Source of the DNA: an uncultured Alphaproteobacteria bacterium
GTDB taxonomy: Bacteria > Pseudomonadota > Alphaproteobacteria > Micropepsales > Micropepsaceae
Reading direction: 5' to 3'
Assembly: GCA_937865685.1 (NCBI GenBank)
Contig: CALMGU010000120.1
Location: forward strand, 62,001-126,000
Length of the DNA stretch: 64,000 nt
How positions within the stretch are numbered: position 1 is the first letter of the stretch; the number at the start of each line of letters is the position of its first letter. The notes under the pieces were generated by a model. That model was not told the DNA's origin. It made no database searches and was given only the letters and a program-made list of their open reading frames with translations. The position numbers were made by a program, and so were the translations under genes. Positions 28,951 through 44,861 of this stretch are shown in pieces.

Positions 28951-29706
28951 TTACAGTTTCACGCTTTTGCGCAAATCCGAAGCGCCATTAAAGAGCAAAC
29001 CCGTGTCCGTGCCTATGGAAACGAAAGAAGCCCCGGCCTGGATATAGCGGCCGGCCGCATCGGCGGAGGTCGCGAAAATGCCCGCGGCTTTTCCCGCCGA
29101 GCGGATCCGGGTGAGCGCCTCTGAAATCGCTGACACCACGTCAGGATGTGTGGAGTTGCCCAGATGGCCAAGGCCGCCGGCCAGATCGCCCGGGCCGATG
29201 AAAAGACCGTCCACGCCTTCGATGGCGGCGATGTCTTCTATGGCGGAAAGGCCCGCGGCGCTTTCGATCTGCACCACCAGGCAGATATCGGCATGGGTGT
29301 TTTCGAGATATTTGGCGTTCACGCCGAAACCGGAAGCGCGGCTGGTGGCGCTGGCGACGCCCCGCATGCCATGGGGCGGAAAGCGGGTGGCGGCGACCAG
29401 CATCTTGGCCTGGGCCGCGCTTTCGACCATGGGAATGAGCAGCGAACGGAAACCGATATCGAGATATTGCTTGATGAGGACCGGATCGCCCACCGGCGGA
29501 CGGGCCACGGCTTCCACCGGATAGGCTTTCACGGCCTGGAGCTGCGCCAGCAACGTCTGGATGGTGTTGGGCGCATGTTCGCCATCGAACAAGAGCCAGT
29601 CATAGCCGGCGCCGGCGCAGAGTTCGGCCGTATAGGCATTGGCCAGGGCCTGCCAGAGGCCGATCTGCGGGCGGTGGACGGCGAGTGCCTGCTTGAGCTT
29701 GTTCAT
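28951..29706 (-). CDS. hpaI: 4-hydroxy-2-oxoheptanedioate aldolase
   Basis: A 251-residue class II (metal-dependent) HpcH/HpaI aldolase. [36 protein letters not shown] (in part) and [20 protein letters not shown] match HpaI closely, including the base His in DGEHAPN and the metal-binding Glu/Asp. It splits 4-hydroxy-2-oxoheptanedioate to pyruvate and succinate semialdehyde, the last step of the homoprotocatechuate pathway. ATG 29706 overlaps the hpaH stop (ATGA), which decides the start; the longer frame upstream is inside hpaH. Final gene of the operon. Confidence 0.93.
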
Positions 29707-30506
29707 GCGAACCGTACCGAGATGTTGCCGTGAGGACCGAAATCGATGTGGAATTGATCGCCGGCGGCCGCGAAGACCGGCGCGGTGAAGCTGCCGCAGA
29801 GCACGATCTCGCCGGGCTGCAGGGTTTCGTCCCATTCCCACAATTTGTTCGCCAGCCACGCCACGCCGAGAGCCGGATGACCCAGCACCGCCGCCGACAC
29901 GCCGGAATCCTCGATCACGCCATTGCGCGAGATCAGTGCCGATACCCAGCGCAGATCGGTGGCGGCGGGGATGGCCTGGTCCGAAATGACCAGCCCGGCG
30001 TTGGCGGCATTGTCGGATATGGTGTCGAACACTTTGCGCGTGGCGCCGGTTTCCGGATCGATGCGGCGGATTCGGGCATCGATAATCTCGATGGCGGGAA
30101 CGATGCGGCCGGTCGCGTTCAACACGTCCTGCACGGTGCAGCCGGGTCCCGACAGCCGGTCTTTCAGGATGAAAGCAAGTTCCACTTCCACCCGTGGCTC
30201 GATGAAACGGGAAATGGGGATGTCGCCATTATTTGCGAACAGCATATCGTCCAACAGGGCGCCATAATCCGGCTCGTTGATGTTGGAGGAGCGCTGCATG
30301 GCCCGGCTGGTAAGGCCGATCTTGTGCCCGATCAGTTTCCGGCCACCGGCCAGCTTGTTCGCGACCCAGGCGCGCTGCACCCGATAGCCATCGGCGATAT
30401 CCATGTCCGGATGCTCGCGCGAAAAATGACCGATCTGCTGGCCGCTTTTTTCCGCGGCATCCAGCCGGGCGGCCATCCCCGCGAGCTCCCCCTCCGACAA
30501 CGGCAT
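29703..30506 (-). CDS. hpaH: 2-oxo-hept-4-ene-1,7-dioate hydratase
   Basis: A 267-residue hydratase whose motifs follow HpaH throughout: [49 protein letters not shown] and [12 protein letters not shown]-like. It adds water to 2-oxohept-4-ene-1,7-dioate with Mg2+ to give the HpaI substrate. It lies 2 bp after hpaF and overlaps hpaI by 4 nt, in an unbroken leftward operon. Confidence 0.94.
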
Positions 30507-30508
30507 TA

Positions 30509-30898
30509 TCAGTCCTTTTTGAAGCGCTTATGGATATTGTTGTGCTTGAAGCTTCCCGCTTCGTCGGCTTCCTCGACATACAGCGACAAGGCCAGATAGC
30601 GGCGGCCATAGAGTTCGGCGAAATGGGCTTTGATCTGCTCGAACAGGTCGGTGAAGAAGGCTTTCTTGAACTCGGCGGTGCGGCCCGCGGCCATTTTGAC
30701 CGTGACATTGACAAAGGCGTCGTCCGCCTTGCCGTCGGCGATCACATAATCATCCAGCCGGATGGCGCGCACCCGGATGCCGCCCCAGGGAAAGATCCCG
30801 CCGGAATTGCGCATCGCGGCCGCGATCAGTTCCAGCAGGCCGTGAATGTCGGCTTCGCCTTCCAGATTGGACGTCCATTCGACGACGGCATGCGCCAT
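30509..30898 (-). CDS. hpaF: 5-carboxymethyl-2-hydroxymuconate isomerase, atypical N-terminus
   Basis: A 129-residue protein matching CHMI along its length ([59 protein letters not shown], each partial). CHMI belongs to the tautomerase superfamily, where the amino-terminal Pro, exposed after Met removal, is the catalytic base. Here the second codon is GCG, giving Met-Ala-His instead of the usual Met-Pro-His. The neighbouring residues align, so this is not a start error. The enzyme may be weak, use another base, or be dispensable. The ATG overlaps the upstream stop (TAATG). Confidence 0.85.
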
Positions 30899-31716
30899 TA
30901 GACGATCTCCATGGTGGCGACGGTGCAGCCGACGGCGAAGATGGGGATCGGCGCATAGAAATGAATTGTGCCTCTGCCCCGCGCGGCGGCGGCGGCGGCG
31001 ATGAAGGTGCGGATTTCGAAACCGCCCTGGCCCGCGTCACGATAAGTCTCCGCGTCGGTATAGGAGAGCATGGCGTCCTTGTCCTGATGCGCCCAGCGGT
31101 TCAGGAAATCCTTGTCCCAATCGACATTGATCATGCCGCTGTCGGGCGTGGCGGGCCAATGCGAGATGCCGCCGGTACAGACCAGGGCAATCCTCTCCGG
31201 CACCGCATCGCAGGCATGGCGCAAAGCTTCGCCGAACGCCCAGGCGCGGCGCAGCGGCGTCAAAGGCGGCCCCTGGCAATTGATGTTGCCTGGAATGATC
31301 GTGAGCTTGTTGTCGGGATCCAGGAAATGCAGCGGCACCATGATGCCGTGATCGAAGCGCCATTCCTCGGCATAGGCGACATCGACGCTTTTCTGCACCT
31401 CCACGATCAGGCGGCGGGAAAGGTCCGGATTGCCGCGCACGGTCCGGTGGGGGATGCGCAGCCATTCGGCATCCTCGATCGGTCCGTCATAGGCGTCCGC
31501 CATGCCTAGCGCATAAGCGGGCATATTGTTCATGAAGAAATTGGCGAAATGCTCGGCGGCGACAACGATCAGGGCGTCGGGCCGCGCGGCATTGAGGGCA
31601 TCGCGCATCTTGCCGAATGCCTTATAGAGTGGATCGCGCAACGCCGGATCGGCGCGCTCCGCCCGTCCGGTGATGCCGGGGGCATGGCTGCAGATGCCGC
31701 TGAATACCAGGCTCAT
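30898..31716 (-). CDS. LigB-type extradiol dioxygenase catalytic subunit (HpaD role)
   Basis: A 272-residue class III extradiol dioxygenase. Iron ligands His11 (ICSHAPG), His56 (AAEHFANFF) and Glu234 (GFEIRT) are present, with catalytic His123 (RFDHGIMVP) and His186 (GGISHWPATP). It opens catecholic rings next to the hydroxyls with O2. Its place between hpaG2 and hpaF points to 3,4-dihydroxyphenylacetate 2,3-cleavage. The sequence is closer in pattern to LigB/MhpB than to the E. coli HpaD, and a LigA-like subunit is encoded upstream with a 4-nt overlap. A protocatechuate-like substrate is possible. Confidence 0.85.
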   Translation of the reverse strand: MSLVFSGICSHAPGITGRAERADPALRDPLYKAFGKMRDALNAARPDALIVVAAEHFANFFMNNMPAYALGMADAYDGPIEDAEWLRIPHRTVRGNPDLSRRLIVEVQKSVDVAYAEEWRFDHGIMVPLHFLDPDNKLTIIPGNINCQGPPLTPLRRAWAFGEALRHACDAVPERIALVCTGGISHWPATPDSGMINVDWDKDFLNRWAHQDKDAMLSYTDAETYRDAGQGGFEIRTFIAAAAAARGRGTIHFYAPIPIFAVGCTVATMEIV

Positions 31717-32039
31717 GCTCCCGCCACCTTTTCATCCACGCCGGACAGCATGGCATAGATGCCAGCCCGGACCGGCCCATGCCGTTTGACCCCGTCGCGC
31801 ATGCGCTGAAGATAATCGGACCATTCGATGCCGCAGAAAGCGGCGAAGTGCATCAAAATCTGTCCGTTGACGCCCAAGACATAGAGCAGGCCGATATCCG
31901 GCTCCAGCACGGCGCGCCGTTCATCCTCGCTGAGTCCGAAGGGCGCGATCGCGTCTTGGGGTGCGCTCTTGAATTTCCGCTTCAGGTCTTCGTCGCGGTT
32001 GAGCTGAAACAGCAATTTGGAAAGCTGGTAGAGGCTCAC
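31713..32039 (-). CDS. LigA-like small subunit of extradiol dioxygenase
   Basis: A 108-residue helical protein resembling the alpha subunit of protocatechuate 4,5-dioxygenase (KSAPQDAIAPFGLSEDERRAVLEPDIGLLYVLGVNGQILMHFAAFCG, in part). In LigAB the alpha subunit caps the active site of the catalytic beta subunit. It overlaps the LigB-like gene by 4 nt, so the two products should form one heteromeric enzyme. The E. coli type HpaD has no such partner, so the pairing marks a different ring-cleavage enzyme in an otherwise standard hpa operon. Confidence 0.82.
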   Translation of the reverse strand: MSLYQLSKLLFQLNRDEDLKRKFKSAPQDAIAPFGLSEDERRAVLEPDIGLLYVLGVNGQILMHFAAFCGIEWSDYLQRMRDGVKRHGPVRAGIYAMLSGVDEKVAGA

Positions 32040-32794
32040 GGTTTCGGCTCCGCAATGAGGCGGTTCGACAGCCGCCCGATGCCTTCGATCTCACAGATCA
32101 CTTCATCACCCGCCGCGCAGAAATGAACGCCTTGCGGCGTTCCCGTCAGAATCATGTCGCCGGGCAACAGGGTCATGGTCTGGGAAAGATAGGCGATCAG
32201 GCCCGCCACATCGAGCACCATGTCCTGGGTCGTGCCCTCCTGGACCGTGTTGCCATTCACCAGGGTGCGCAAGCGAAGGGCCTGGGGATCGGAAATATCG
32301 GCGGCATCGACGATCCAGGGGCCCAGGGGGGTGGTCCCGTCGCGGTTCTTCACCCTGAGGTTGGGGCGATAATAATTCTCCAGATATTCGCGGATGGCAT
32401 AGTCGCAGGCGATGGTGTAGCCGCCGACAAGGTCCAGGGCCTGATCGGCCGTCACATGGCGCGCGGGCTTGCCGATGATGGCGACGAGCTCGCATTCCGG
32501 ATGCATCTGATTGGCGTCGTCCGGCCGCACTGTCGTGCCCCGATGACCCGCCAGCGTATTCATGCCTTTCAAGAAAATGAGCGGCGGCTCCTTGGTCTTG
32601 AAGCCCAGTTCTTTGACATGGTCGGCATAGTTGAGGCCCAGGGCAAAGATCGAAGCGCCCGGCGTGACCGGTGCCAGCCAATGCGCGTCGGCGGCAGGAA
32701 TTGTCTCGCCATTGCCGAGGCGCAGCGTGTTGTCCTGATCGACAAGCTCGGCCCAGACGGCGGATCCATGGTGAGCGATGCGGGCGCGCTTCAT
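32036..32794 (-). CDS. hpaG2: HpaG2: homoprotocatechuate pathway isomerase/decarboxylase subunit
   Basis: A 252-residue fumarylacetoacetate-hydrolase-family protein. The active-site signature is clear: ALGLNYADHVKELG, PECELVAIIGKPARHV, GYTIACDYAIRE and DMILTGTPQGVHF. With HpaG1 it performs decarboxylation of 5-oxopent-3-ene-1,2,5-tricarboxylate and isomerisation of 2-hydroxyhepta-2,4-dienedioate. In E. coli both halves are one fused protein; here they are two adjacent genes overlapping by 4 nt. Confidence 0.9.
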   Translation of the reverse strand: MKRARIAHHGSAVWAELVDQDNTLRLGNGETIPAADAHWLAPVTPGASIFALGLNYADHVKELGFKTKEPPLIFLKGMNTLAGHRGTTVRPDDANQMHPECELVAIIGKPARHVTADQALDLVGGYTIACDYAIREYLENYYRPNLRVKNRDGTTPLGPWIVDAADISDPQALRLRTLVNGNTVQEGTTQDMVLDVAGLIAYLSQTMTLLPGDMILTGTPQGVHFCAAGDEVICEIEGIGRLSNRLIAEPKP

Positions 32795-33429
32795 GCGGCC
32801 CTCCCGGATTTAAAGCGGATGGCAAGCGGGGAGAGGCCATCGCATGTCACATCCACCCGGTCGCCGGGATCCGCGCGGGGCGCATCATGGGGCAGCCCGA
32901 TCAGCAGCAGGTCTCCAGCCGCCAATGTCATGAAGCTGCTGATGTCGGCGATCAAGGTCGCGGCATCCCGCGCCAGTCTCTCCGGCGACCAGGCATGGAC
33001 GGCCGCACCATTGACCGAGGTGCCGATACTGGCGCCGAGACGTTTGGGATCAAAGGCGCTGAAATCTCCCAGCGGCAAGAACCCGTCGCGGCAGCGCTGC
33101 CGCACGGCGGGGCGGTAATAGCTGGCTTCCGGCTCGCTGATGTCCAGCGCCAGGCAAATGCCCGACACACAGTCCAGCGCGTTCTCACGCGATATCTGCG
33201 TGGCGGCGCGGCCAAACAGCAGCCCAAGGGTCGCCGCGACTTCAACTTGAACGAGCCCGGTGTCCAGCGCGATATCGCCGCCGCCGGACGCCAGGCAATT
33301 GCGCGTCTTGATATAGAGAACCGGCGCTTCGGGCGGCTTCTTGTAAGGCGGCATTGCAAAATCGCCCGCCATTTGCGCAAGCTGCGGGCGGTCGTTCAGG
33401 ACAACACCATAGATGTTTCCTGCGATCAT
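32791..33429 (-). CDS. hpaG1: HpaG1: homoprotocatechuate pathway isomerase/decarboxylase subunit
   Basis: A 212-residue FAH-family protein corresponding to the N-terminal half of E. coli HpaG (IYGVVLNDRPQL, PPYKKPPEAPVLYIKTRN, EASYYRPAVRQRCRDGFLPLG). First gene of the leftward hpa operon. ATG 33429 follows a strong GGGGGAGAGGTGG ribosome site. The promoter lies in the gap shared with hpaR, with a palindromic operator candidate 31 bp upstream of the start. Confidence 0.9.
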   Translation of the reverse strand: MIAGNIYGVVLNDRPQLAQMAGDFAMPPYKKPPEAPVLYIKTRNCLASGGGDIALDTGLVQVEVAATLGLLFGRAATQISRENALDCVSGICLALDISEPEASYYRPAVRQRCRDGFLPLGDFSAFDPKRLGASIGTSVNGAAVHAWSPERLARDAATLIADISSFMTLAAGDLLLIGLPHDAPRADPGDRVDVTCDGLSPLAIRFKSGRAA

Positions 33430-33459
33430 CGGTTGCCACCTCTCCCCCGCTTGGGGATA

Positions 33460-33477
33460 TATTTAACACGTTAAATA
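33460..33477. promoter_or_regulatory. HpaR operator candidate 1 (hpaG1/hpaR divergent promoter)
   Basis: TATTTAAC-AC-GTTAAATA is an 18-bp inverted repeat with perfect 8-bp arms, placed between hpaG1 and hpaR. Its half-site GTTAAATA recurs as GTTAAGTA and GTTAAATT in the hpaE/Rieske promoter region. A dyad between a MarR-family gene and its catabolic operon is the classical arrangement for repression by that regulator. Confidence 0.72.
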
Positions 33478-33539
33478 GAAAAAGTGATCCCTTGACCCGA
33501 AGAATCCGCAATGCTTCGACGCCGGAAAAGGCAAGAAAG

Positions 33540-33968
33540 TTGCTGCCCTACCGGCAGTCTCTGGCGGGCACTCTGCTGGCGGCCCGCGAAGCGGTTATGG
33601 CGCCGATCCGCCCCATGCTGAACGAGGCGGGGGTCACCGAGCAGCAATGGCGCGTGCTGCGCGTGCTGGACGGGGCGGGGCCCATGGATCTGAAGGGTCT
33701 GGCGGCATCCTCGCTTCTCTTCGGTCCCAGCCTGTCGCGGATCATTAAGGATTTGGCTGACCGCGGCCTGGTGCAGCGCAAGGACAATCCCAAGGATGGC
33801 CGCGGCTCCATCGTGTCGGTGACCGCGCCAGGCCGGGCGTTGATTCAAGGGACCGCGCGCCGCACCATGCGGCAGCTGGACGGCTATGCGCTCAAATTCG
33901 GCGATGAGCGGCTGAAAAAGCTGATCTCCGAGCTTCAAGCTTTCACCGGCGCCATTCGCGAGGATTGA
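33540..33968 (+). CDS. hpaR: HpaR, MarR-family repressor of homoprotocatechuate catabolism
   Basis: About 142 residues from TTG 33540, which follows GGAAAAGG by about ten bases; TTG 33492 is an alternative adding 16 residues. SLAGTLLAAREAVMAPIRPML, VTEQQWRVLRVLDGAGP, GPSLSRIIKDLADRGLVQRK and KDGRGSIVSVT follow the HpaR pattern of a winged-helix MarR protein. In E. coli HpaR represses the meta-cleavage operon and is released by 4-hydroxyphenylacetate or homoprotocatechuate. The dyads at 33460, 35498 and 35566 are its likely targets. Confidence 0.87.
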   Translation: MLPYRQSLAGTLLAAREAVMAPIRPMLNEAGVTEQQWRVLRVLDGAGPMDLKGLAASSLLFGPSLSRIIKDLADRGLVQRKDNPKDGRGSIVSVTAPGRALIQGTARRTMRQLDGYALKFGDERLKKLISELQAFTGAIRED

Positions 33969-33970
33969 AA

Positions 33971-35470
33971 TCACGCGCCCAAGCGCTGGATCTTGTGGCT
34001 GCCCCGCGCCAGGGCGACGTTTTTCGTTTCCATATAGAAATCGAAACTCCAATCGCCGCCGTCGCGTCCGATGCCGCTGGCCTTGGTGCCGCCGAACGGC
34101 GTGGGCAAATGGCGGACATTTTCGCTGTTGACCCAGATCATGCCGGCTTCCAGCGCGTCGGACACGCGCAGCGCCCGGCCGACATCGCCGGTCCACAGAT
34201 AAGCGGCGAGGCCATAAACCACATCATTGGCCTTGGCGATGGCATCGGCCTCGTCGGTGAACGAGATCACGGTGAGAACCGGCCCGAAAATCTCTTCCTT
34301 GGCGATCCGCATCGACTGATGGGCTCCGGTGAACAAGGTGGGCTGCACGAAATAGCCTTTGCCCGCCACCGCTTCGCCGCCCACCGCGATGGTGGCGCCG
34401 TCGCTGCGCGCGATGTCCATGTAACTCAGCACCTTCGAACAATGGCGCGGGTGGATCAGAGGGCCGACTTCCGTGACCGGGTCGAAGGGATCGCCCACTT
34501 TCAGGTTGCGTACCCGCGCGGCCAGCTTTTCCACGAAACGGTCATGGATCGAGGCCTGGACCAAGACACGGGACGAGGATGTGCAGCGCTCGCCGTTGAG
34601 CGAATAGATCATGAAGATCGCCGCATCCAACGCCCGCTCGAAATCCGCATCGTCGAACACGATGACGGGATTCTTGCCGCCCAATTCGAAATGCACCCGT
34701 TTCAAGGTGTCGGCGCCCTGGCGCATGATCGCCGAGCCGGTCTTGGATTCGCCGACAAAAGCCACGGCCTTGATGTCGGGATGCTCGGTCAGGCGCTTGC
34801 CGGTGGTTTCGCCCAATCCGTTGATCGAATTGTAGACGCCGTCCGGAAGGCCCGCCGCCTGCGCGATCTCCACCAACAGGCGCGCGGAATAGGGCGACCA
34901 TTCCGCGGGCTTGTGCACCACCGTGCAGCCCGCCGCCAAAGCCGGCGCGATCTTCCAGGTCGACAGCATGAATGGCGTGTTCCAGGGCGTGATCACCGCC
35001 ACCGGACCGATGGGCGCGCGAGTGGTGTAGTTGAGATGATCCTGGGTGGGGAGGGCTTGGCCGTCATTGGCCATCGGCGCCCGGTCGGCAAAGAAGCGGA
35101 AATTTTCCGCGCCGCGAATGGCGGCCTTCGACATGAAGCGCCAGCACTGGCCGGCGTCCAGGCATTCGACCGCCGCGATTTCCTCGGCCCGCGCTTCGAT
35201 GATGTCGGCGACCTTGTGCAGGATGGCCTTGCGCTTGTCGCCGGGCGTGGCGGCCCATTGGGGAAAGGCCGCTTTTGCCGCGGCGACGGCGGAATTGAGC
35301 TCGGCTTCGGTGGCGTCGCAGACCGTGCCGATGATTTCGCCGGTGGCGGGTTCGGTCACCGCGAAGCCTTCGCCGGCGCCCGAGAGCGAGCGGCCGTTCA
35401 CGAAATGGCCCAGAGGGGCCGGCATTTGCCCGATGGCGGCCAAGGCCGCGGCGCGGCGCGCATTCGTCAT
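33971..35470 (-). CDS. hpaE: 5-carboxymethyl-2-hydroxymuconate-semialdehyde dehydrogenase
   Basis: A 499-residue aldehyde dehydrogenase. ITPWNTPFMLSTWKIAPALA, ELGGKNPVIVFDDADFERALDA (in part), the catalytic Cys in NGERCTSSSRV, and WVNSENVRHLPTPFGG match HpaE. It oxidises the ring-cleavage product semialdehyde to the tricarboxylate used by HpaG. ATG 35470 is chosen because GGAG lies six bases ahead; the ATG at 35482 has no ribosome site. Convergent with hpaR (stops 2 bp apart) and so transcribed apart from the main operon, under its own promoter with two dyads. Confidence 0.92.
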   Translation of the reverse strand: MTNARRAAALAAIGQMPAPLGHFVNGRSLSGAGEGFAVTEPATGEIIGTVCDATEAELNSAVAAAKAAFPQWAATPGDKRKAILHKVADIIEARAEEIAAVECLDAGQCWRFMSKAAIRGAENFRFFADRAPMANDGQALPTQDHLNYTTRAPIGPVAVITPWNTPFMLSTWKIAPALAAGCTVVHKPAEWSPYSARLLVEIAQAAGLPDGVYNSINGLGETTGKRLTEHPDIKAVAFVGESKTGSAIMRQGADTLKRVHFELGGKNPVIVFDDADFERALDAAIFMIYSLNGERCTSSSRVLVQASIHDRFVEKLAARVRNLKVGDPFDPVTEVGPLIHPRHCSKVLSYMDIARSDGATIAVGGEAVAGKGYFVQPTLFTGAHQSMRIAKEEIFGPVLTVISFTDEADAIAKANDVVYGLAAYLWTGDVGRALRVSDALEAGMIWVNSENVRHLPTPFGGTKASGIGRDGGDWSFDFYMETKNVALARGSHKIQRLGA

Positions 35471-35497
35471 GACGATCTCCATCGCAAGGCAGTGATG

Positions 35498-35701: not shown

Positions 35702-36886
35702 ATGCTTCATCAATCCACTGCTTATGGTCGCAAGCCGCCCAAATCCCTTGATGAATTGACGCGCGTGGGCGCGGGCACGCCCATGGGCGAATTGTTGCGC
35801 CGCTACTGGCATCCGGTGGGGCTTGCGAAGGACGCCGGCCAGACGCCGCGCCCGGTCCGGGTGCTGGGCGAGGATCTCATTCTGTTTCGCGACGGCAAGG
35901 GCCGGCCTGGGCTGCTGCATCATCGCTGCGCCCATCGCGGCTCATCCCTTTATTATGGCCGGGTGGAGGAGGAGGGCATCCGCTGCTGTTATCATGGCTG
36001 GATGTTCGCGGTGGACGGTACGTGTGTCGACCAGCCTTGCGAGCCGGACAATGGCGCGAAGACCCGCAAGAATATCCGCCAGCCATATTACGTGGTGCAG
36101 GAGCGGTATGGGCTGATCTTCGCCTATATGGGGCCACCCGACAAACAGCCGGTCTTGCCGCGGTACAATATCCTGGAGGAGCTGGGCCCGGGCGAATTCC
36201 TCGAGGCCGATGACAGCAGCATCGGCAGCGGCGGCGCGACCATCGTGCCCTGCAACTGGCTGCAGCATTTCGAGAATGTGATGGATCCGTTTCACGTTCC
36301 CATCCTGCACGGCAACTTCAGCGGCAACCAGTTCGTGGCCAAGATGTCGATAATGCCGAAAGTGAAATTCGACTATACCGATCGGGGCGTCCGTTCCGTG
36401 CAGCTGCGCGAAATCGAAGCCGGTACCCACCGGCGCATCACCGAGGCCGTGCTTCCCACCATCCGGGCCGTGGCCAGTCCCCGTGCCGAAGGCGAAGGAT
36501 CGTGCAGCCTCTTGGGCTGGGTCTTGCCCATCGACGATACCAGCTTTCGCATCTATTCGGCGGGCCGGGTCTCGCAAGCCGGCGCGCTGTCCAAGATCCG
36601 CTCGCATTTCAACGGCAAGCTCTGGCACGAATTGAGTGAGGAAGAGCACCGCAAATATCCCGGCGATTTCGAAGCCCAGGTCAGCCAGGGCCCTATCACG
36701 ATTCATTCGGAGGAGCATCTGGCCTCCACCGACATGGGCGTGTCGAAGCTTCGGCATGTGTTCCGCCGTCAGCTCGAGGCCATCGCCGCTGGCAAGGATC
36801 CGATGGGTGTGAATTTCGACGCGGACAAGGAACTGGTCCTGCTGGAAGCCGGCACCAGCGTGGACGCGAAAGTATCCCCGCCGTGA
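35702..36886 (+). CDS. Rieske non-heme iron oxygenase, alpha subunit
   Basis: A 394-residue oxygenase. The Rieske [2Fe-2S] ligands Cys76-x-His78 and Cys95-x2-His98 have the standard 16-residue spacing. The mononuclear iron region NWLQHFENVMDPFHVPILHG (residues 185-204) supplies Asp195, His198 and His203. It resembles phenoxybenzoate/vanillate-type single-subunit oxygenases that hydroxylate or O-demethylate aromatics. No reductase is encoded nearby, so electrons must come from elsewhere. ATG 35702 follows GGAGGGAAAG; GTG 35687 is less likely. Next to hpa genes, homovanillate-like O-demethylation is conceivable, but the substrate is unproven. Confidence 0.87.
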   Translation: MLHQSTAYGRKPPKSLDELTRVGAGTPMGELLRRYWHPVGLAKDAGQTPRPVRVLGEDLILFRDGKGRPGLLHHRCAHRGSSLYYGRVEEEGIRCCYHGWMFAVDGTCVDQPCEPDNGAKTRKNIRQPYYVVQERYGLIFAYMGPPDKQPVLPRYNILEELGPGEFLEADDSSIGSGGATIVPCNWLQHFENVMDPFHVPILHGNFSGNQFVAKMSIMPKVKFDYTDRGVRSVQLREIEAGTHRRITEAVLPTIRAVASPRAEGEGSCSLLGWVLPIDDTSFRIYSAGRVSQAGALSKIRSHFNGKLWHELSEEEHRKYPGDFEAQVSQGPITIHSEEHLASTDMGVSKLRHVFRRQLEAIAAGKDPMGVNFDADKELVLLEAGTSVDAKVSPP

Positions 36887-38313
36887 GCGAAGGGCGGGGG
36901 CGGCAGAATTATATCGACGGCGCCTGGCAGGCTTCGGCATCGCCGGCGACAATTCCGGTAGTGAATCCCGCCACCGAAATTGTCATCGCCGAAGCCGCTG
37001 CCAGCTCGGAGCTGGATGCGGCGCGGGCAGCATCGGCGGCGCGCAAGGCATTCGACCGCTGGTCGCAAACCCCGGTCTCAGAGCGGATCGCGCTATTGGA
37101 ACGGGTGCGGGCTGGGATCGAAGCCCGTGCCGACGAACTGGCGGGCCTGATCACATCAGAGATGGGCTGCCCCATCGGCTTTTCCCGCGCGGCGCAGATC
37201 GGCCTGGCGGTGGGCGATATCCGCGCCACCTTGGCCGTGGCGGCGGAACTGAATGACCGCGTGCTGGGCCGTTCCATCGTGCAGAACGACCCAGTGGGTG
37301 TGGTGGTGGCGATCACGCCGTGGAATTTTCCCCTGCATCAGATTCTGGCCAAGATCGCGCCTGCGCTCGCCGCCGGCTGCACGGTGATCTTGAAACCCAG
37401 CGAAGTAACGCCGCTCGATGCCGTCATCCTGGCGGAAATCTTTCATGCCGCGGGATCGCCGCCAGGCGTGTTCAACATGGTCCTGGGCGGCCGCGAAACC
37501 GGCGCGGCGCTGGTGGCGCGGCCGGAAGTGGACATGGTGTCCTTCACCGGCTCGACGCGGGGTGGGCGAGCCGTGGCGGAAATCGCCGGCCGCGGATTGA
37601 AAAAAGCGGCCCTGGAGCTGGGCGGAAAGTCCGCCAATATCATTCTGGACGATGCCGATCTGGAAAAAGTCATCCCGGCGGCGCTGGGCCAGTCCTTCAT
37701 CAATTCCGGCCAGGTCTGCGCGGCGCTGTCGCGCCTGATCGTGCCGGAGGCGCGCCGCGCAGACATCGAAGCCATCGCGGTGGAGGCCGCGAAGAGCTGG
37801 ACCTTGGGCGATCCCACCGATCCGGCAAACCGCCTGGGGCCGCTGGCCAACCGGGCGCAACAGGAAAAAGTGCGCCAGGCGATTTCCGGCGCGATGGAGG
37901 AAGGCGCCAGCCTTCTGTGCGGCGGACCGGACCAGCCGGCGGGATTGTCCAAGGGCGCTTATGTGTCGCCGACGATCCTGTCCAATGTCACGCAAGGCAT
38001 GACGATTTTCCGGGAAGAGACATTCGGGCCGGTATTGTCGGTGATCGGATATGCCGATGAGGGAGATGCGATCCGGATCGCCAATGACAGCCAATATGGC
38101 CTGTCCGGTGGTGTATGGTCGCAAAGTCTGGAGCGGGCCGAAGGCGTGGCGCGGCGGATGCGGACCGGGCAGGTGATCCTCAATGGAGCGTCCCTGGATC
38201 TGGCGGCCCCATTCGGTGGCGTGAAGCAATCGGGCCTGGGCCGCGAGAATGGCCGCTACGGCCTGGAAGAATATTGTTCGCCCAAGGCGATCACCCGCCC
38301 GATAAGCGCATGA
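36883..38313 (+). CDS. Aldehyde dehydrogenase (NAD(P)-dependent)
   Basis: A 476-residue enzyme with ITPWNFPLHQILAKIAPALA, LKPSEVTPLD, ELGGKSANIILDDADL, the catalytic Cys279 in NSGQVCAALS, and EETFGPVLSV. The GTG start overlaps the Rieske stop (GTGA), so the two are coupled. It would oxidise an aromatic or other aldehyde to the acid. Placed between an oxygenase and a ThDP enzyme, an arylaldehyde or arylacetaldehyde substrate is a reasonable inference only. Confidence 0.88.
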   Translation: MSEGRGRQNYIDGAWQASASPATIPVVNPATEIVIAEAAASSELDAARAASAARKAFDRWSQTPVSERIALLERVRAGIEARADELAGLITSEMGCPIGFSRAAQIGLAVGDIRATLAVAAELNDRVLGRSIVQNDPVGVVVAITPWNFPLHQILAKIAPALAAGCTVILKPSEVTPLDAVILAEIFHAAGSPPGVFNMVLGGRETGAALVARPEVDMVSFTGSTRGGRAVAEIAGRGLKKAALELGGKSANIILDDADLEKVIPAALGQSFINSGQVCAALSRLIVPEARRADIEAIAVEAAKSWTLGDPTDPANRLGPLANRAQQEKVRQAISGAMEEGASLLCGGPDQPAGLSKGAYVSPTILSNVTQGMTIFREETFGPVLSVIGYADEGDAIRIANDSQYGLSGGVWSQSLERAEGVARRMRTGQVILNGASLDLAAPFGGVKQSGLGRENGRYGLEEYCSPKAITRPISA

Positions 38314-38329
38314 CGATAAAGGAACAGGC

Positions 38330-39982
38330 ATGACCACCGGAGGCCAGGCGCTGGTCGAGCAGCTGCGCCGCGAAGGCGTGGAGATCGTGTTCGGCATTCC
38401 CGGCGTGCAGCTGGATTGGGCGGTCGATGCGCTGTGCGACGCCTCCGACATCCGCTTCATCGTGCCACGGCATGAGCAAGCCACATCGTATATGGCGGAC
38501 GGCTATGCCCGCACCACCGGCAAGGAAGGCGTCTGCATGGTGGTGCCGGGCCCGGGCATGTTGAATGCGCTGGCGGGCCTGGCGACATCCTGGGCCTGCA
38601 ATGCGCGGGTGCTGTTCATCGCCGGGCAGATTCCGTCGCCGACCATCGGCAAGGGCTTCGGCATGCTGCACGAGATTGCCGACCAGTCGGGTATTTTGAA
38701 ATCCCTGACCAAATGGCATGGCATCGCCCGCACGCCATCCGAGATTCCCGCTTTGGTTCATGAGGCATTTGCGCAGTTGCGCTCCGGCCGTCCCCGGCCG
38801 GTGGCGATCGAGCTTCCGCCGGATGTCCTGCAGGGCGTTGCCGATGAGATGCGATATTTCGATGCGGCGCCTTTCACACCGACGCCGGTCGATACGGCGA
38901 GTGCAAAACGCGCCGCCGAGATGTTGGCGTCGGCGAAGTTTCCCGTGATCTATGCCGGCGGCGGCGCTCGTGAGGCTGGCGAAGCTCTGAAATCGCTGGC
39001 CGAGACATTGCAGGCGCCCATCGTGATGACGGAAGGCGCGCGCGGCGCTGTTTCCGCCCGCCATCCCTTGGCGCTTTCCACCTTGGGTGGCCGGTGCGTG
39101 TTGCCCCATGCCGATGTGGTGCTGGTGGCGGGCAGCCGCTTCCTGGATGGCATGGCCAAGCCGGTCTTTGCGTCGCCGAATTGCCGGCTGATCTATCTTA
39201 ACATCGATGAAGCGGCTTTTGCCGCGCCGCGCCAGGCCGGTCTCAATCTTCATGGCGATGTGCGCCTGGGATTGGAAGCGATCGGTGCGGCATTGGATAA
39301 GGGCATGCAGCGCGCCTCGCGCGCGGATGATGTCGCCAAGGTGAAAGCCTGGGAGGACAGGCAGACCGGGGCGATCCAGCCCCAGTCGGATTATGTGTCG
39401 GTGCTGCGCGAACATATCGCCGACGATGCCACCTTGGTCAGCGAACTGACCCAGGTGGGGTATTTCGCCAACATCGCCTACAGGGTTCATGCGCCGCATG
39501 GTCTGGTGACGCCGGGCTTTCAGGGCACTTTGGGGTACGGCTTTCCCACCGCGCTGGGGGTGGCGGCGGGCGCGCCGGCCAAGCGCACCGTGTCGGTCAC
39601 TGGCGACGGCGGTTTCGGCTGGGCGCTTCAGGAATTGGCGACGGCCGCGAAATACCGGCTCAATCTCACCACCATTGTTTTCGCGGATGGGCGTTTCGGC
39701 AATGTGCAGCGCATTCAAAAACGCGTCTTCGGGCGCACCTTCGCGGTCGAATTGCAGAATCCGGATTTCCAGCTCTTGGCGGGCTCCTTCGGCGTCAGGT
39801 CGAAACGGGTGGATTCGCCGGCCGGACTTGCTGCCGCGCTGAAAGCCGCCGAGATGGCGGGCGGCCCATCATTGATCGAAGTGCAGGTGGGCGAAATGCC
39901 AAGTCCATGGGCGCTGATCCACCCCTTTGTGCCGCCGTTAAATCCGCCCCCGCCCAATCCCCTGGGCGAACCGAATATATAA
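38330..39982 (+). CDS. Thiamine-diphosphate enzyme (acetolactate synthase-like)
   Basis: A 550-residue ThDP enzyme with N-terminal Pyr domain (catalytic Glu in PRHEQATSYMADGYAR), central domain and C-terminal PP domain. The cofactor motif begins with GDG at about 425-427, but the usual Asn-Asn some 25 residues on reads Ala-Asp (VFADGRFGN); Asp could still bind Mg2+. Substrate-determining residues do not match classical acetolactate synthase, and no regulatory subunit is encoded. Next to an ALDH gene, decarboxylation of a 2-oxo acid to an aldehyde is plausible. Confidence 0.82.
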   Translation: MTTGGQALVEQLRREGVEIVFGIPGVQLDWAVDALCDASDIRFIVPRHEQATSYMADGYARTTGKEGVCMVVPGPGMLNALAGLATSWACNARVLFIAGQIPSPTIGKGFGMLHEIADQSGILKSLTKWHGIARTPSEIPALVHEAFAQLRSGRPRPVAIELPPDVLQGVADEMRYFDAAPFTPTPVDTASAKRAAEMLASAKFPVIYAGGGAREAGEALKSLAETLQAPIVMTEGARGAVSARHPLALSTLGGRCVLPHADVVLVAGSRFLDGMAKPVFASPNCRLIYLNIDEAAFAAPRQAGLNLHGDVRLGLEAIGAALDKGMQRASRADDVAKVKAWEDRQTGAIQPQSDYVSVLREHIADDATLVSELTQVGYFANIAYRVHAPHGLVTPGFQGTLGYGFPTALGVAAGAPAKRTVSVTGDGGFGWALQELATAAKYRLNLTTIVFADGRFGNVQRIQKRVFGRTFAVELQNPDFQLLAGSFGVRSKRVDSPAGLAAALKAAEMAGGPSLIEVQVGEMPSPWALIHPFVPPLNPPPPNPLGEPNI

Positions 39983-40034
39983 GTGAAGCCTGACGATTGC
40001 CGGAACCGCTTTTGTAACGGAAGGAATTTCCACC

Positions 40035-41402
40035 GTGCATGCAGATCCCGCCGCTGGCGATGCGCCGGCCGCCGCGCCCGCCACCGGCTGGCGCCGCCAT
40101 TATCCCTGGTATGTCGCCGGCGTCCTGATGGTGGCCTATGTACTGTCGTTCCTGGACCGCCAGATTCTGTATCTGATGGTCGGTCCGATCCGCCGCGACC
40201 TGCACATCACCGATTTCGAGTTCTCGCTTCTGACGGGCGGTGCGCTGGGTATTTTCTATACCTTGATGGGGCTGCCGATCGGCTATCTGGCGGATCGCTA
40301 TAACCGCAAGAATCTGATCGCCATCGGCATTACCATGTGGAGCCTGATGACCGTGTTGTGCGGCCTGGCGCGCACCTATCCCATTCTGTTCCTGGGCCGG
40401 ATCGGCGTGGGGGTGGGCGAGGCGACCTTGTCGCCTTCCGCCTATTCCCTGATTTCGGATTCCTTCGACAAGACGCGCCTGCCGCGCGCCATGAGCCTTT
40501 ACGTGTTGGGCCTGTTCATTGGCGCGGGTCTTGCCCTCATCCTGGGCGGCGAAGTGATCGGCCTGCTGCAGAAGACCCCTGAAGTCGTCCTGCCCTATTT
40601 CGGCGCGGTGCGGTCCTGGAATCTGGTTTTCATCGTGATCGGCCTGCCGGGCCTTCTGATCGCGCTCTGGGTTTCCACATTGAAGGAACCGGCGCGCACC
40701 GGCGCGGTGAAATCGGCGATGGCGAACGGACGATTTCCTTTCGAAGAAGTGTTCGCCTTTCTGCGGCGCTATCCGCTGATGGCCCTGTCCTTGTTCGTGG
40801 GTTCGGCGATGTTCTCGGTGATCGCCTATACCGATTCCTGGTACCCGGAACTGTTCGTCCGGACCTGGGGATGGACCGCGCGCGAAACCGGCCGCATGAA
40901 CGGAATATCGTCCGTGATCGGTGGCCCGCTGGGCCTTTTGTTCGTGGGCTGGTATTCCAGCCGCGCGCTGGCGCGGGGTGAAAGCGATGCCTGCCTGAAG
41001 CTCACCGCCTGGGCGGCGCTGGGCATCATGATACCGGCCTGTCTGCTTCCCATCGCGCCCAGCGCCACCATCATGGCGGGGCTGCTGATCCCCTATAAAT
41101 TCTTCATCGCTTTCACCCCGGTTCTGATTCCTTCCGCCATCCAGATGGTGGCACCCAATCACTTGCGGGCGCAGCTGGGCGCGACTTTCCTTTTGGCCAC
41201 CGGCTTGTTCGGGGTCAGCATGGGGCCGATCCTGCCCGCCTTCCTCAGCGATTTCGTCTTCACCGGCGCGCGGGCGCTCCCCCATGCCCTGTCGACCACG
41301 GCCCTGGTGCTGGGGCCGCTCACCTTCTGCATCACCTGGCTGGGCCTGAAACAGTATCGCCAGCGTTATGCCGAGATGGCGCAGACCCGCCATTCCGGTT
41401 GA
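40035..41402 (+). CDS. MFS transporter (spinster-like family)
   Basis: A 455-residue protein with about 12 membrane helices. The N-terminal MVAYVLSFLDRQILYLMVGPIRRDL (in part), the loop motif GYLADRYNRKNLI and the helix motif GRIGVGVGEATLSPSAYSLISD (in part) resemble the spinster-type MFS members common in alphaproteobacterial aromatic clusters. It probably takes up an organic acid. GTG 40035 follows AAGGAA. The gene follows the ThDP gene by 52 bp on the same strand. Confidence 0.85.
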   Translation: MHADPAAGDAPAAAPATGWRRHYPWYVAGVLMVAYVLSFLDRQILYLMVGPIRRDLHITDFEFSLLTGGALGIFYTLMGLPIGYLADRYNRKNLIAIGITMWSLMTVLCGLARTYPILFLGRIGVGVGEATLSPSAYSLISDSFDKTRLPRAMSLYVLGLFIGAGLALILGGEVIGLLQKTPEVVLPYFGAVRSWNLVFIVIGLPGLLIALWVSTLKEPARTGAVKSAMANGRFPFEEVFAFLRRYPLMALSLFVGSAMFSVIAYTDSWYPELFVRTWGWTARETGRMNGISSVIGGPLGLLFVGWYSSRALARGESDACLKLTAWAALGIMIPACLLPIAPSATIMAGLLIPYKFFIAFTPVLIPSAIQMVAPNHLRAQLGATFLLATGLFGVSMGPILPAFLSDFVFTGARALPHALSTTALVLGPLTFCITWLGLKQYRQRYAEMAQTRHSG

Positions 41403-41486
41403 ATGGTTGCGGATTGCACACCCAGCCGATAGGACAATTCCCGCTTGTGACAAAAGGCCGGGGAAGCATCCGGCCAGGGAAATAAA

Positions 41487-42755
41487 ATGTCTGGAATTTC
41501 GGAAAGCCACGACGCCGGCATGGGTAAGGCGCAGATCCGGAGCAATATGATCCGGTTTGCGGTGGCGCAGGCTTTCGGCAGCGCCAACTCCGTCATCGTC
41601 TATGCCACCGGCGCCATCGTGGGCGACATGCTGGCGCCCAACAAGGCGCTGGCGACCTTTCCGATCTCCGTCTTCGTGGTGGGCATGGCGGCCTGCACCT
41701 TGCCCACCGGCGCCATCGCGCGGCGCTGGGGACGGCAGGCGGCTTTCCGCACCGGCACCATGGCGGGCATGACGGCGGGACTGATCTCGGCCTTGGCCGT
41801 GCTTCTGGGATCCTTCTGGCTGTTCACGGGGGCGATGTTCTTGGGCGGCGCCTATGCGGCGGCTGTGCTGTCGTTCCGCTTCGCCGCGGCCGATTGCGTG
41901 CCGCAGGAGCAGCGGGCGCGCGCGCTTTCCATCGTGATGATCGGCGGCGTGTTCGCGGGCGTGCTGGGTCCGCAAATCGTGACCCATACGATGAAGCTTC
42001 TGCCGCCTTATCTGTTTCTTGCCAGCTATCTGGCGCAGGCGGCGCTGGCGGTCCTGTGCGGGCTGATCCTGTCCGGCATCTCGATCCCCAAGCTGGCCGA
42101 TGAAAATACCAATGCCGGCCGTCCGCTGATCGAGATCGTGCGCCAGCGCAAATTCGTGGCCGCGATCATCTGCGGCGTGATCAGCTATCTCTTGATGAAC
42201 TTCATCATGACCGCGGCACCGCTGGCGATGAAGATCTGCGGCCTTTCCCTGGAATCGTCGGACCTGGGACTGCAATGGCATGTGATCGCCATGTATCTGC
42301 CCAGCTTGATCACTGGCAGCCTGATCACGCGCTTCGGGGCCGGCCGCATCGTGCTCGCGGGACTGGCACTGACGGTTTGCGCCATCGCGACCGGGCTTTC
42401 CGGGATCACCCAGACGCATTTCTGGGTCTTGTTGATCTTCCTGGGCCTGGGTTGGAATTTCGCATTCCTGGGCGCTTCGTCGCTGGTGCTGGAATGCTAC
42501 CGGCCGGAAGAGCGCACGCGGGTGCAGGCCTTCAACGATTTCGTGGTGTTCGGCTTTGTCGCGGTGGGCTCCTTCATTTCGGGCGGCCTCCTGGAAACCT
42601 ATGGCTGGCGGACGGTCTGCTGGGTGGCGCTGCCGCCCCTGTTCATCGCGGCGATCTCGCTGGCCGCGACCGGCACCTTCCGCCGCAAGGTTCACGAGCA
42701 TCTGGATGCGATGGACCCGCTGATGGCGGACGCCGTGCCGTCCGACCAAAGATAA
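41487..42755 (+). CDS. MFS transporter
   Basis: A 422-residue protein with about 12 helices, distinct from the preceding transporter. ARRWGRQAAFRTGTMAG is the loop 2-3 motif, and the second half has ERTRVQAFNDFVVFG. It resembles drug or metabolite exporters of the MFS. Substrate unknown; it could import or export a pathway compound. The 84-bp gap before it shows no clear promoter. Confidence 0.83.
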   Translation: MSGISESHDAGMGKAQIRSNMIRFAVAQAFGSANSVIVYATGAIVGDMLAPNKALATFPISVFVVGMAACTLPTGAIARRWGRQAAFRTGTMAGMTAGLISALAVLLGSFWLFTGAMFLGGAYAAAVLSFRFAAADCVPQEQRARALSIVMIGGVFAGVLGPQIVTHTMKLLPPYLFLASYLAQAALAVLCGLILSGISIPKLADENTNAGRPLIEIVRQRKFVAAIICGVISYLLMNFIMTAAPLAMKICGLSLESSDLGLQWHVIAMYLPSLITGSLITRFGAGRIVLAGLALTVCAIATGLSGITQTHFWVLLIFLGLGWNFAFLGASSLVLECYRPEERTRVQAFNDFVVFGFVAVGSFISGGLLETYGWRTVCWVALPPLFIAAISLAATGTFRRKVHEHLDAMDPLMADAVPSDQR

Positions 42756-42901
42756 GTTGCATCGAACGGAAAGTTCGTTCGCCGGGCAGGGCGCGGACGC
42801 CGCTCCATTGGCGAAATTTATAGCGGGCGGCAGGCGCGCCGCACCGAATGAGACATGCGGATATGGCAAAGTTGCCGCCGGAAACGGCCGGAGGTGGCAT
42901 C

Positions 42902-43918
42902 ATGTCTCGTGCGATGATCTTGCTTCTCAGCGCCGCGCTCTGCCTTGCAGGTGGAGCTGTGGCCGGTCCATCCGGCTATCATATCGCCAAGACGGTCACC
43001 TTGGGCGGAGACGGCGGATGGGACTATCTCAATCAGGACCCGGCCACGGGGAATCTTTTCATCACGCGCGGAACGCATGTGATGGTGGTCGATGCCGATG
43101 GAAAAGCCTTGGCGGATATCGGCAATCTTCAAGGCGTTCATGGCACCGTCTTTGCCGGCGGCCGCGCCTATGTGAGCGAGGGCGGCGCCGACCGGATCGC
43201 GGTGATTGATAAAAAGAGCTTTGCCAAGGTGGGCGAGATCGCGGTTGGTACAAAGCCGGACGGCATTCTCTATGAGCCGCGCACCAACCGGATTTTCACT
43301 TTCAATGCCGGAAGCGGCGATGCCACGGCGGTGGATGCGGCCACCGGCAAAGTGGTCGGTACAGTGGCCCTGGGCGGCAAGCCGGAAGCGGCGGCGGCCG
43401 ATCGCGCCGGAACCATTTACGTCAATATCGAAGACAAGAGCGAATTGGCGGTCTTCGATGCCAGGACGCTCCGTGTCCGGGGGCACTATGCCCTGGCCCC
43501 CTGTGAATCGCCGTCGGGCATGGCGGCGGATGTCGCGCATGGGCGAATTTTCTCAGGGTGCAGCAACCAGATGACATCCGTGGAGGATATGAAGACCGGC
43601 AAAGTCGTGGGACATTTCCCGATTGGGCGCGGCGTGGATGCGGACCGCTTCGATTCTGCCACCGGGCTCATCTTCAGTTCGAACGGGGAAAGTGGCACAT
43701 TGACGGTCGCGCGTGAGGACAATCCCGGCAAGTTCACGGTGCTTGAAGACATTGAAACCGCAGATGGTGCCCGTACCATGGAGCTGGATCCCAAGACGCA
43801 TCGCGTTTTCCTGGTGACGGCGGATCGCCGTCCCGGCACGCCGACGGACGCCCAGCCGCATCCGCGACCGGTTCCGGTTCCCGGCACGTTCCGTCTTATC
43901 ATTCTGGATCGCGGATGA
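42902..43918 (+). CDS. Exported YncE/YVTN-type beta-propeller protein
   Basis: A 338-residue protein with a Sec signal (residues 1 to about 22, AVA-GP) and repeated YVTN-like blades, for example AYVSEGGADRIAVIDKKSF, IFTFNAGSGDATAVDAATG and RIFSGCSNQMTSVEDMKTG. It should fold as a seven-bladed periplasmic propeller. ATG 42902 follows GGAGGTGG, better than ATG 42848. The stop overlaps the adaptor start (ATGA), so it is the first gene of the efflux operon. Ligand or enzymatic role unknown. Confidence 0.85.
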   Translation: MSRAMILLLSAALCLAGGAVAGPSGYHIAKTVTLGGDGGWDYLNQDPATGNLFITRGTHVMVVDADGKALADIGNLQGVHGTVFAGGRAYVSEGGADRIAVIDKKSFAKVGEIAVGTKPDGILYEPRTNRIFTFNAGSGDATAVDAATGKVVGTVALGGKPEAAAADRAGTIYVNIEDKSELAVFDARTLRVRGHYALAPCESPSGMAADVAHGRIFSGCSNQMTSVEDMKTGKVVGHFPIGRGVDADRFDSATGLIFSSNGESGTLTVAREDNPGKFTVLEDIETADGARTMELDPKTHRVFLVTADRRPGTPTDAQPHPRPVPVPGTFRLIILDRG

Positions 43919-44859
43919 AGAAAATCATTTTTGCCTTGTCTCTGCTGCTGGCCGCTTGCGGACCGGGCACCGCGCCAGACAAGAAGGAAGACAAGGGCGC
44001 GGGGCCGGGCGTGAGCCTGAGCGCCGAAGAGGTTAAGGGCCTGGGAATAGAAACAGCGGCGGCTTCGGCGGCCAGGTTTCAAAAAGAGGTCACGGGCTAC
44101 GGCATCGTGACCGCCCTGGATTCCATCGCCCAGACCGATGCGGACTTTATGACCGCCTCAGCCGCGGCTTCGCAGAGCGAAGCGGCGGCGGCGCGGGCGC
44201 GCGCGCTGGGCGCAGGCGATGAAGCGGCGGTGTCCCGCGAAGTGGTTGAAGCGGCGGCCAGCAAGGCTGCGGCGGACCAGGCGGCGCTGGCGCTGGCGCG
44301 CCGCAAGGCTGATGCGGTTTTCGGCATTCATGCGCCTTGGCAAAATCCGGCGGAACGCGCGGCGATCATGGCGCGGCTGGCCAGTGGAAAAACCATCCTG
44401 GTTCATGTCACGTTTCCGCTGGGCGCTTTGGGCCGCGCCGCGCCAGCCGCGATCAAGATCACGCGGCTGGGCGCCGATGGGCAAAGCTGGATGTCCGCGA
44501 AGGCGTGGGACGCGCCTTCGGATCCCGCGTTTCCCGGCCGGGGATTCTATGCCCTGGTTGACGGCAGCGACCTGGCGCAGAATGAACATGTAATCGCCGC
44601 GATTCCGGCCGGTGCGTCCGAGAGCGGGATATTGGTGCCGGCGTCCGCGTTGCTGATGGGCGAGGGCGAGGCCTCCGTCTATGTCGAAATCGGCGGCAAT
44701 CACTTCCTCAGGACACGGATCGATATCGGCAAGCCGATGGCAAATGGCTATTTCGTGCGGCCCGGCGGCGGCATCGCGCCCGGCCAGAAGGTCGTGACCC
44801 AGGGGGCCGGTCTTCTTCTGTCCCATGAGATCAATCCCAGCAGCGCTGCCGAGGATTGA
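43915..44859 (+). CDS. RND efflux periplasmic adaptor lipoprotein
   Basis: A 314-residue lipoprotein with lipobox LLAAC (Cys at about 16). An alanine-rich helical section (residues 75-135) and the beta-barrel/membrane-proximal part (GILVPASALLMGEGEASVYVEIGGN, in part) fit a membrane-fusion protein of the HlyD/CusB class. It is shorter than typical adaptors and lacks an obvious full lipoyl domain pair, so it may be a reduced form. Coupled to the propeller upstream and the pump downstream. Confidence 0.78.
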   Translation: MKKIIFALSLLLAACGPGTAPDKKEDKGAGPGVSLSAEEVKGLGIETAAASAARFQKEVTGYGIVTALDSIAQTDADFMTASAAASQSEAAAARARALGAGDEAAVSREVVEAAASKAAADQAALALARRKADAVFGIHAPWQNPAERAAIMARLASGKTILVHVTFPLGALGRAAPAAIKITRLGADGQSWMSAKAWDAPSDPAFPGRGFYALVDGSDLAQNEHVIAAIPAGASESGILVPASALLMGEGEASVYVEIGGNHFLRTRIDIGKPMANGYFVRPGGGIAPGQKVVTQGAGLLLSHEINPSSAAED

Positions 44860-44861
44860 CG

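Follow-up and report, generated by a model that had tools for sequence, protein, structure and literature searches.

A candidate HpaR-linked Rieske oxygenase operon that may feed tyrosine-like aromatics into the homoprotocatechuate pathway of an alphaproteobacterium

A stretch of 64,000 nucleotides (the window) from an alphaproteobacterial metagenome-assembled genome (MAG; G000, 3.26 Mb, 87% complete) carries five plus-strand genes at positions 35702-42755, which, from the list of open reading frames (ORFs) and Pfam matches, encode a Rieske oxygenase, an aldehyde dehydrogenase (ALDH), a thiamine diphosphate (ThDP)-dependent enzyme and two major facilitator superfamily (MFS) transporters. The set is divergent from the minus-strand gene hpaE across an intergenic gap of 220 bp, and the Rieske and ALDH reading frames overlap by 4 bases. 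With modest confidence, these genes are interpreted as a peripheral operon, controlled by HpaR, that would convert an aromatic amino acid resembling tyrosine, or the corresponding oxo-acid, to homoprotocatechuate (HPC), and would constitute a testable HPC feeder route that does not need HpaBC, occurs across several bacterial genera and has a regulon readable from sequence. The preliminary description of this DNA had already recognised the five-gene series next to hpaE, reading away from a shared HpaR-box region; both points are confirmed, with all five ORFs in place on the plus strand and two operators within the gap.

In one scan of public genomes, a relative of the window Rieske protein was encoded at 66 loci, the genes of which were called by GC3. 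Because the order Rieske-ALDH-ThDP-MFS is retained in L023 and L024 (Rieske proteins 94% and 74% identical, respectively) and also, interrupted by insertions, in L025 and L062, the five-gene arrangement, as judged from gene order, is not due to chance. At loci at least about 57% related, no more than 10 kb separates the Rieske gene from hpa genes in near relatives (L022-L024), Caulobacter sp. RHG1 (L025), Sphingomonas (L026-L029), Sphingopyxis (L058) and Novosphingobium (L062), that is, in at least four genera and in differing gene orders, and in Curvibacter (L047) hpaG genes are found 8 kb from the Rieske gene. Rough estimates of the probability of this linkage by chance, in which independence is assumed, are below 1e-5 even with lineages collapsed, and HpaE scores above its cut-off in 27 of the 36 genomes carrying a related Rieske protein. 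The ThDP gene accompanies the Rieske gene in many of the hpa-linked alphaproteobacteria, in two gammaproteobacterial MAGs (L040, L042), in Roseateles and a Burkholderiaceae MAG (L039, L041), and on six Aminobacter plasmids, one of which is annotated with adjacent ThDP, PDR/VanB-type reductase and Rieske genes and a divergent aminotransferase gene. Homologues of the first MFS transporter (54-71%) occur near the Rieske gene in L024-L030, L040, L042 and L062; the second is shared at the Rieske locus by the near relatives L023 and L024 only.

Matches to the putative operator pattern AACATGTTAA with at most one mismatch number six in the window against 0.6 expected, and none of 100 shuffles reaches six. 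The exact operator, WTAACRYGTTAW, occurs 21 times in the 969 kb of collected loci and 13 times in about 29 Mb from six whole genomes with the Rieske-hpa linkage, where the reversed pattern, used as a control, gives 6 sites. Twelve of these 13 sites belong to the HPC-linked pathway and precede the Rieske operon, hpaG/hpaR, the ThDP gene (in Sphingomonas sp. QA11 and S. colocasiae) or a TonB receptor gene (in the same two and in Novosphingobium); in Sphingopyxis (L058) a companion module, considered below, also has a site ahead of its second Rieske gene. On sequence grounds, the Rieske operon, the ThDP gene and hpa would form one regulon linked by operator sharing, and the operators are probably bound by HpaR itself; the window regulator scores just below the TIGR02337 cut-off (115 of 121 bits), and the operators are conserved. 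Operators common to hpa, together with the Rieske-hpa linkage in several genera, reinforce the earlier proposal of a peripheral pathway into HPC with an uptake step and a 2-oxo-acid step. Separately, a third exact operator is present in G000 (G000:C9:88-99; L175), at a contig edge near resistance-nodulation-division (RND) genes and with no recognised pathway gene adjacent.

The identity of the adjoining operon as an HPC meta-cleavage pathway is supported by HpaE and HpaH, both of which score above their equivalog cut-offs (Table 1). The ring-cleavage equivalog HpaD does not (HpaD_Fe, 28 of 316 bits), and a LigAB pair occupies its place; since Burkholderiales hold, within the same gene order, an HpaD version (L164) and a LigAB version (L165), the pair at 30898-32039 suggests a non-orthologous replacement of the HPC dioxygenase. 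A LigB search of plasmids gave no match. Compared with the hpaBC-hpaGEDFHI cluster of E. coli W, the window also has HpaE, HpaF, HpaG, HpaH, HpaI and an HpaR-type regulator, but differs in the lack of HpaBC, in LigAB standing for HpaD and in the additional Rieske-ALDH-ThDP-MFS arm.

The ThDP enzyme exceeds the cut-off of PRK08266 (700 against 571 bits), a subfamily of the acetolactate synthase superfamily that is uncharacterised in NCBIfam, and its second-best family is AruI (PRK07524), for which it stays below the cut-off (374 of 500 bits). In the arginine transaminase pathway, AruH, AruI and KauB act as aminotransferase, ThDP-dependent 2-oxo-acid decarboxylase and ALDH; the window and its relatives share this logic, but differ in the AruI score and in their aromatic context. 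Given the aromatic aminotransferase, N-acyl deacylase and peptidases that join the cluster in relatives, the ThDP-ALDH pair is best read, from gene content, as shortening the side chain of an aromatic amino acid. In S. colocasiae a co-directional run comprises hpaG-LigAB-hpaF-H-I-ALDH-aromatic aminotransferase-ThDP, the aminotransferase scoring 507 bits against the PRK09257 cut-off of 377; a HisC-like aminotransferase gene adjoins the ThDP gene in Caulobacter, Novosphingobium and one gammaproteobacterial MAG, and stands next to the ALDH and ThDP genes in Roseateles. Some clusters further include an ArgE-type (N-acyl) deacylase, S10-like peptidases and a TonB receptor. Arylpyruvates, named among the example substrates in the preliminary description, fit as intermediates, given these aminotransferases.

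The Rieske protein shows several features of a Type Iα enzyme, namely the Rieske motif (C76-x-H78/C95-x2-H98), the 2-His-1-carboxylate iron site, an α subunit alone, with no β-subunit gene adjacent, and a fold nearest to phthalate dioxygenase; the motif residues and N192, D195, H198, H203 and D344 are invariant in 21 relatives. The AlphaFold2 model (mean pLDDT 80.6) finds its best matches in the Protein Data Bank (PDB) among phthalate and isophthalate dioxygenases (top 7v25, 9ina and 7fhr), with the guaiacol O-demethylase 7qwt also among the structural neighbours. The closest characterised enzyme is Sca, encoded on a plasmid of Sphingobium baderi SC-1 (50% identical across 97% of the length), whose gene is annotated there with 1,230 bp, matching the published length, and the window protein, Sca and a small group from other plasmids fall into one well-supported clade (49 rows; several long branches). 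Sca is reported to be 96% identical to PobA of P. pseudoalcaligenes POB310, whose PobAB enzyme dihydroxylates the carboxylated ring of its substrate while the other ring leaves as a phenol; cells expressing Sca degraded 3-phenoxybenzoate, with phenol among the products, also hydroxylated phenoxybenzoates and did not attack the monophenyl compounds tested (PMC11026547). The window enzyme thus resembles these 3- and 4-carboxydiphenyl ether dioxygenases in being a Type Iα enzyme of the phthalate 4,5-dioxygenase kind and of the same clade, and in that several of its relatives have a PDR/VanB-type reductase gene alongside; it differs in the absence of such a gene beside the window copy, in its operon partners and in its linkage to the HPC rather than the protocatechuate pathway. 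Closely related PobA-type Rieske and reductase genes, flanked on both sides by transposases, were observed on the plasmids of S. baderi SC-1 (L148; IS6100) and Rhodococcus pyridinivorans Y6 (L149; IS3-family and IS1071 elements, with the Rieske-reductase pair duplicated), and this occurrence in two phyla looks like a sign of recent mobilisation.

From these elements we infer the following reactions and their order. The first MFS protein would import the substrate, an aminotransferase, encoded elsewhere in the window's genome and within the cluster in relatives, would produce the arylpyruvate, the ThDP enzyme would decarboxylate it to the arylacetaldehyde, and the ALDH would oxidise this to the arylacetate. 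The Rieske enzyme would then oxygenate C3 and C4 of the ring bearing the CH2COOH group, with expulsion of the 4-O-substituent, leaving HPC to be channelled into central metabolism by the hpa operon and its LigAB-type ring-cleavage enzyme. Attack at C3 and C4 yields HPC whether the 4-oxygen carries hydrogen (4-hydroxyphenylacetate), methyl or aryl (isodityrosine or thyronine type), with a weak preference here for aryl. An ether is favoured because of the kinship of the Rieske protein with PobA, and a larger, amino-acid-like substrate because relatives carry a TonB receptor and peptidases; plain tyrosine is disfavoured because carriers already hold HppD and HmgA, and simple O-demethylation because no C1 genes were recognised in the hpa-linked clusters. 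Ethers of the isodityrosine type are therefore a plausible substrate.

Several observations weigh against this interpretation. An identity of 50% does not fix the substrate of the Rieske enzyme, and a relative in R. erythropolis, more distant at 43%, lies near purU, which suggests demethylation by that protein. A dedicated PDR/VanB-type (FNR-C) reductase gene, present beside the Rieske relatives of Caulobacter, Variovorax, Actinomadura and Aminobacter, is absent from the window, and no orthologue was detected in the genome at E<1e-20, the MAG being 87% complete. Moreover, the ThDP gene is missing beside the Rieske gene in many Burkholderiales, and the window operon has no aminotransferase gene.

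The simplest rival, which we consider possible but not probable, is that the Rieske enzyme is a plain 4-hydroxyphenylacetate 3-hydroxylase replacing HpaBC in the use of tyrosine or tyrosine peptides via 4-hydroxyphenylpyruvate, 4-hydroxyphenylacetaldehyde and 4-hydroxyphenylacetate. It requires no unusual substrate, the last compound could be supplied by the aromatic aminotransferase, ThDP enzyme and ALDH, and nine Rieske carriers with HpaE, among them Sphingomonas sp. QA11, whose genome is complete, have no gene of the HpaB family PF03241, the one type of 4-hydroxyphenylacetate hydroxylase searched for. The preliminary description had reported hpaBC as missing, which holds for the window, where neither hpaB nor hpaC adjoins the cluster, and for these nine relatives, but fails for the window's genome, since contig C156 carries an HpaB-1-like gene (430 bits, below the cut-off of 480) with an HpaC-like flavin reductase gene in a separate cluster; the absence of HpaBC was accordingly dropped as an argument for the Rieske enzyme in that genome. 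Against this hydroxylase stands a tyrosine route that is already present, with HppD in 11 of 13 Rieske carriers and HmgA above its cut-off in 9 of 13, the window's genome included (among the alphaproteobacterial carriers checked, HppD in 11 of 11 and HmgA also in 8), and the HpaR-type operators ahead of TonB receptor genes hint at a bulky or scarce substrate. No Rieske enzyme is known to have 4-hydroxyphenylacetate 3-hydroxylase activity.

An O-demethylase acting on homovanillate, or on 3- or 4-methoxyphenylacetates, and feeding HPC appears unlikely. Such reactions are common in the Rieske superfamily, and both 7qwt among the structural neighbours and the 43% relative near purU speak for it; however, no C1-handling gene was recognised in the inspected hpa-linked clusters, the nearest characterised relative is of PobA type, and the aminotransferase and peptidases would be left unexplained. 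Homovanillate O-demethylation was for want of C1 genes in these clusters rejected as the principal explanation, and homovanillate, the example substrate of the preliminary description, has lost ground to a larger compound, as implied by the diaryl-ether dioxygenase kinship, the TonB receptor and the peptidases. In a published study, Rhodococcus strains with VanAB-type enzymes did not grow on homovanillate. Finally, a carboligase or lyase role of the ThDP enzyme, with the five genes belonging to a different pathway and standing next to hpa only by chance, would be compatible with the uncharacterised status and superfamily of PRK08266, but is very improbable given the recurrent linkage and a shared operator that is rare genome-wide.

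Within the preferred interpretation of an HpaR-controlled feeder into HPC, the regulon may, tentatively and with considerable doubt, serve the degradation of cross-linked tyrosines, isodityrosine through the Rieske enzyme and the biphenyl dityrosine through the companion module (module B). Isodityrosine occurs in plant extensins and nematode cuticle. Once both of its side chains had been shortened, a PobA-like Rieske enzyme would split it into two molecules of HPC: 3,4-hydroxyls would be introduced into the ring under attack and are already present on the one set free. For dityrosine, module B would contribute a 2-hydroxybiphenyl-monooxygenase-like enzyme, a LigB-type dioxygenase, two FAH enzymes and an HpaB-like or second Rieske enzyme. 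The module on C156 (L088, C156:6000-24000; L172, C156:1-8000) encodes a second ThDP enzyme, 75% identical to the first, an ALDH, a LigB-type dioxygenase, an aromatic aminotransferase, two FAH proteins, the HpaB-like/HpaC-like pair and a flavin monooxygenase related to 2-hydroxybiphenyl 3-monooxygenase and RebC, among other PDB entries, a complement that might be suited to a biphenyl, for instance dityrosine. Sphingomonas, Sphingopyxis and Aminobacter have related modules adjacent to the Rieske cluster, and Roseateles in its vicinity. In Sphingobium SYK-6, the LigXZY system for 5,5'-dehydrodivanillate combines a Rieske oxygenase, a LigB-type dioxygenase and a TonB receptor for a biaryl; module B would resemble it by analogy, but with different genes. 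The open-access literature searched describes no bacterial catabolic route for isodityrosine or dityrosine, and should the nearest known enzyme be a correct guide to the substrate, this would be the first degradation route for ether-linked tyrosines. An ether substrate would also account for the mineralisation by soil bacteria of cross-linked tyrosines from plant cell walls and animal cuticles. It would further hint at a natural setting for PobA enzymes, with which pollutant degraders attack residues of pyrethroids.

Table 1. Predicted genes and operators of the hpa and Rieske region (window coordinates)
Feature	Position	Strand	Basis or remark
HpaI-like aldolase	28951..29859	-	ORF; true start probably internal, near 29709; 47-65% homologues in relatives' hpa operons
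HpaH hydratase	29703..30506	-	TIGR02312, 404 bits (cut-off 351)
HpaF-like isomerase	30509..30898	-	ORF; kept in hpa operon
LigB-type catalytic subunit, class III extradiol family	30898..31716	-	At operon position of HpaD; HpaD_Fe 28 bits vs 316
LigA-type small subunit of ring-cleavage dioxygenase	31713..32039	-	PF07746
HpaG2-like	32036..32794	-	ORF; hpa operon order kept in relatives
HpaG1-like	32791..33429	-	ORF; hpa operon order kept in relatives
HpaR-like MarR regulator	33459..33968	+	TIGR02337, 115 bits, just below cut-off 121; exact start uncertain
HpaR-type operator TTAACACGTTAA	33463..33474		Palindrome upstream of hpaG1
HpaE, 5-carboxymethyl-2-hydroxymuconate semialdehyde dehydrogenase	33971..35482	-	TIGR02299, 767 bits (cut-off 638)
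HpaR-type operator TAAACATGTTAA	35502..35513		Palindrome between hpaE and Rieske gene
HpaR-type operator ATAACATGTTAA	35565..35576		Palindrome in hpaE-Rieske gap; rare genome-wide
Rieske non-heme iron oxygenase α subunit, PobA/phthalate-dioxygenase type, 394 aa	35702..36886	+	Pfam PF00355
Aldehyde dehydrogenase, BADH/ALDH family, 476 aa	36883..38313	+	PF00171, 534 bits; same position in L023, L024, L025, L062
ThDP-dependent enzyme, PRK08266 subfamily, 550 aa; proposed aryl-2-oxo-acid decarboxylase	38330..39982	+	NF006122, 700 bits (cut-off 571)
MFS transporter 1, anion-symporter type; proposed uptake	40035..41402	+	PF07690, 130 bits; 2A0114 match
MFS transporter 2, Bcr/MdtL-like	41487..42755	+	PF07690

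Two conserved ORFs, c7 and c21, had been considered as unknown genes, with no Pfam match, and were rejected when re-calling with GC3 gave other genes, namely a reductase-like gene on the opposite strand at c7 (Variovorax, Actinomadura) and hpa genes at c21. Downstream of the five-gene set, at 42848-49341, the window carries a gene for a YVTN-type beta-propeller protein and, after it, an RND efflux set. This stretch is also present in the near relative L023, up to the end of that locus, and was not observed where the Rieske gene lies in remoter relatives.

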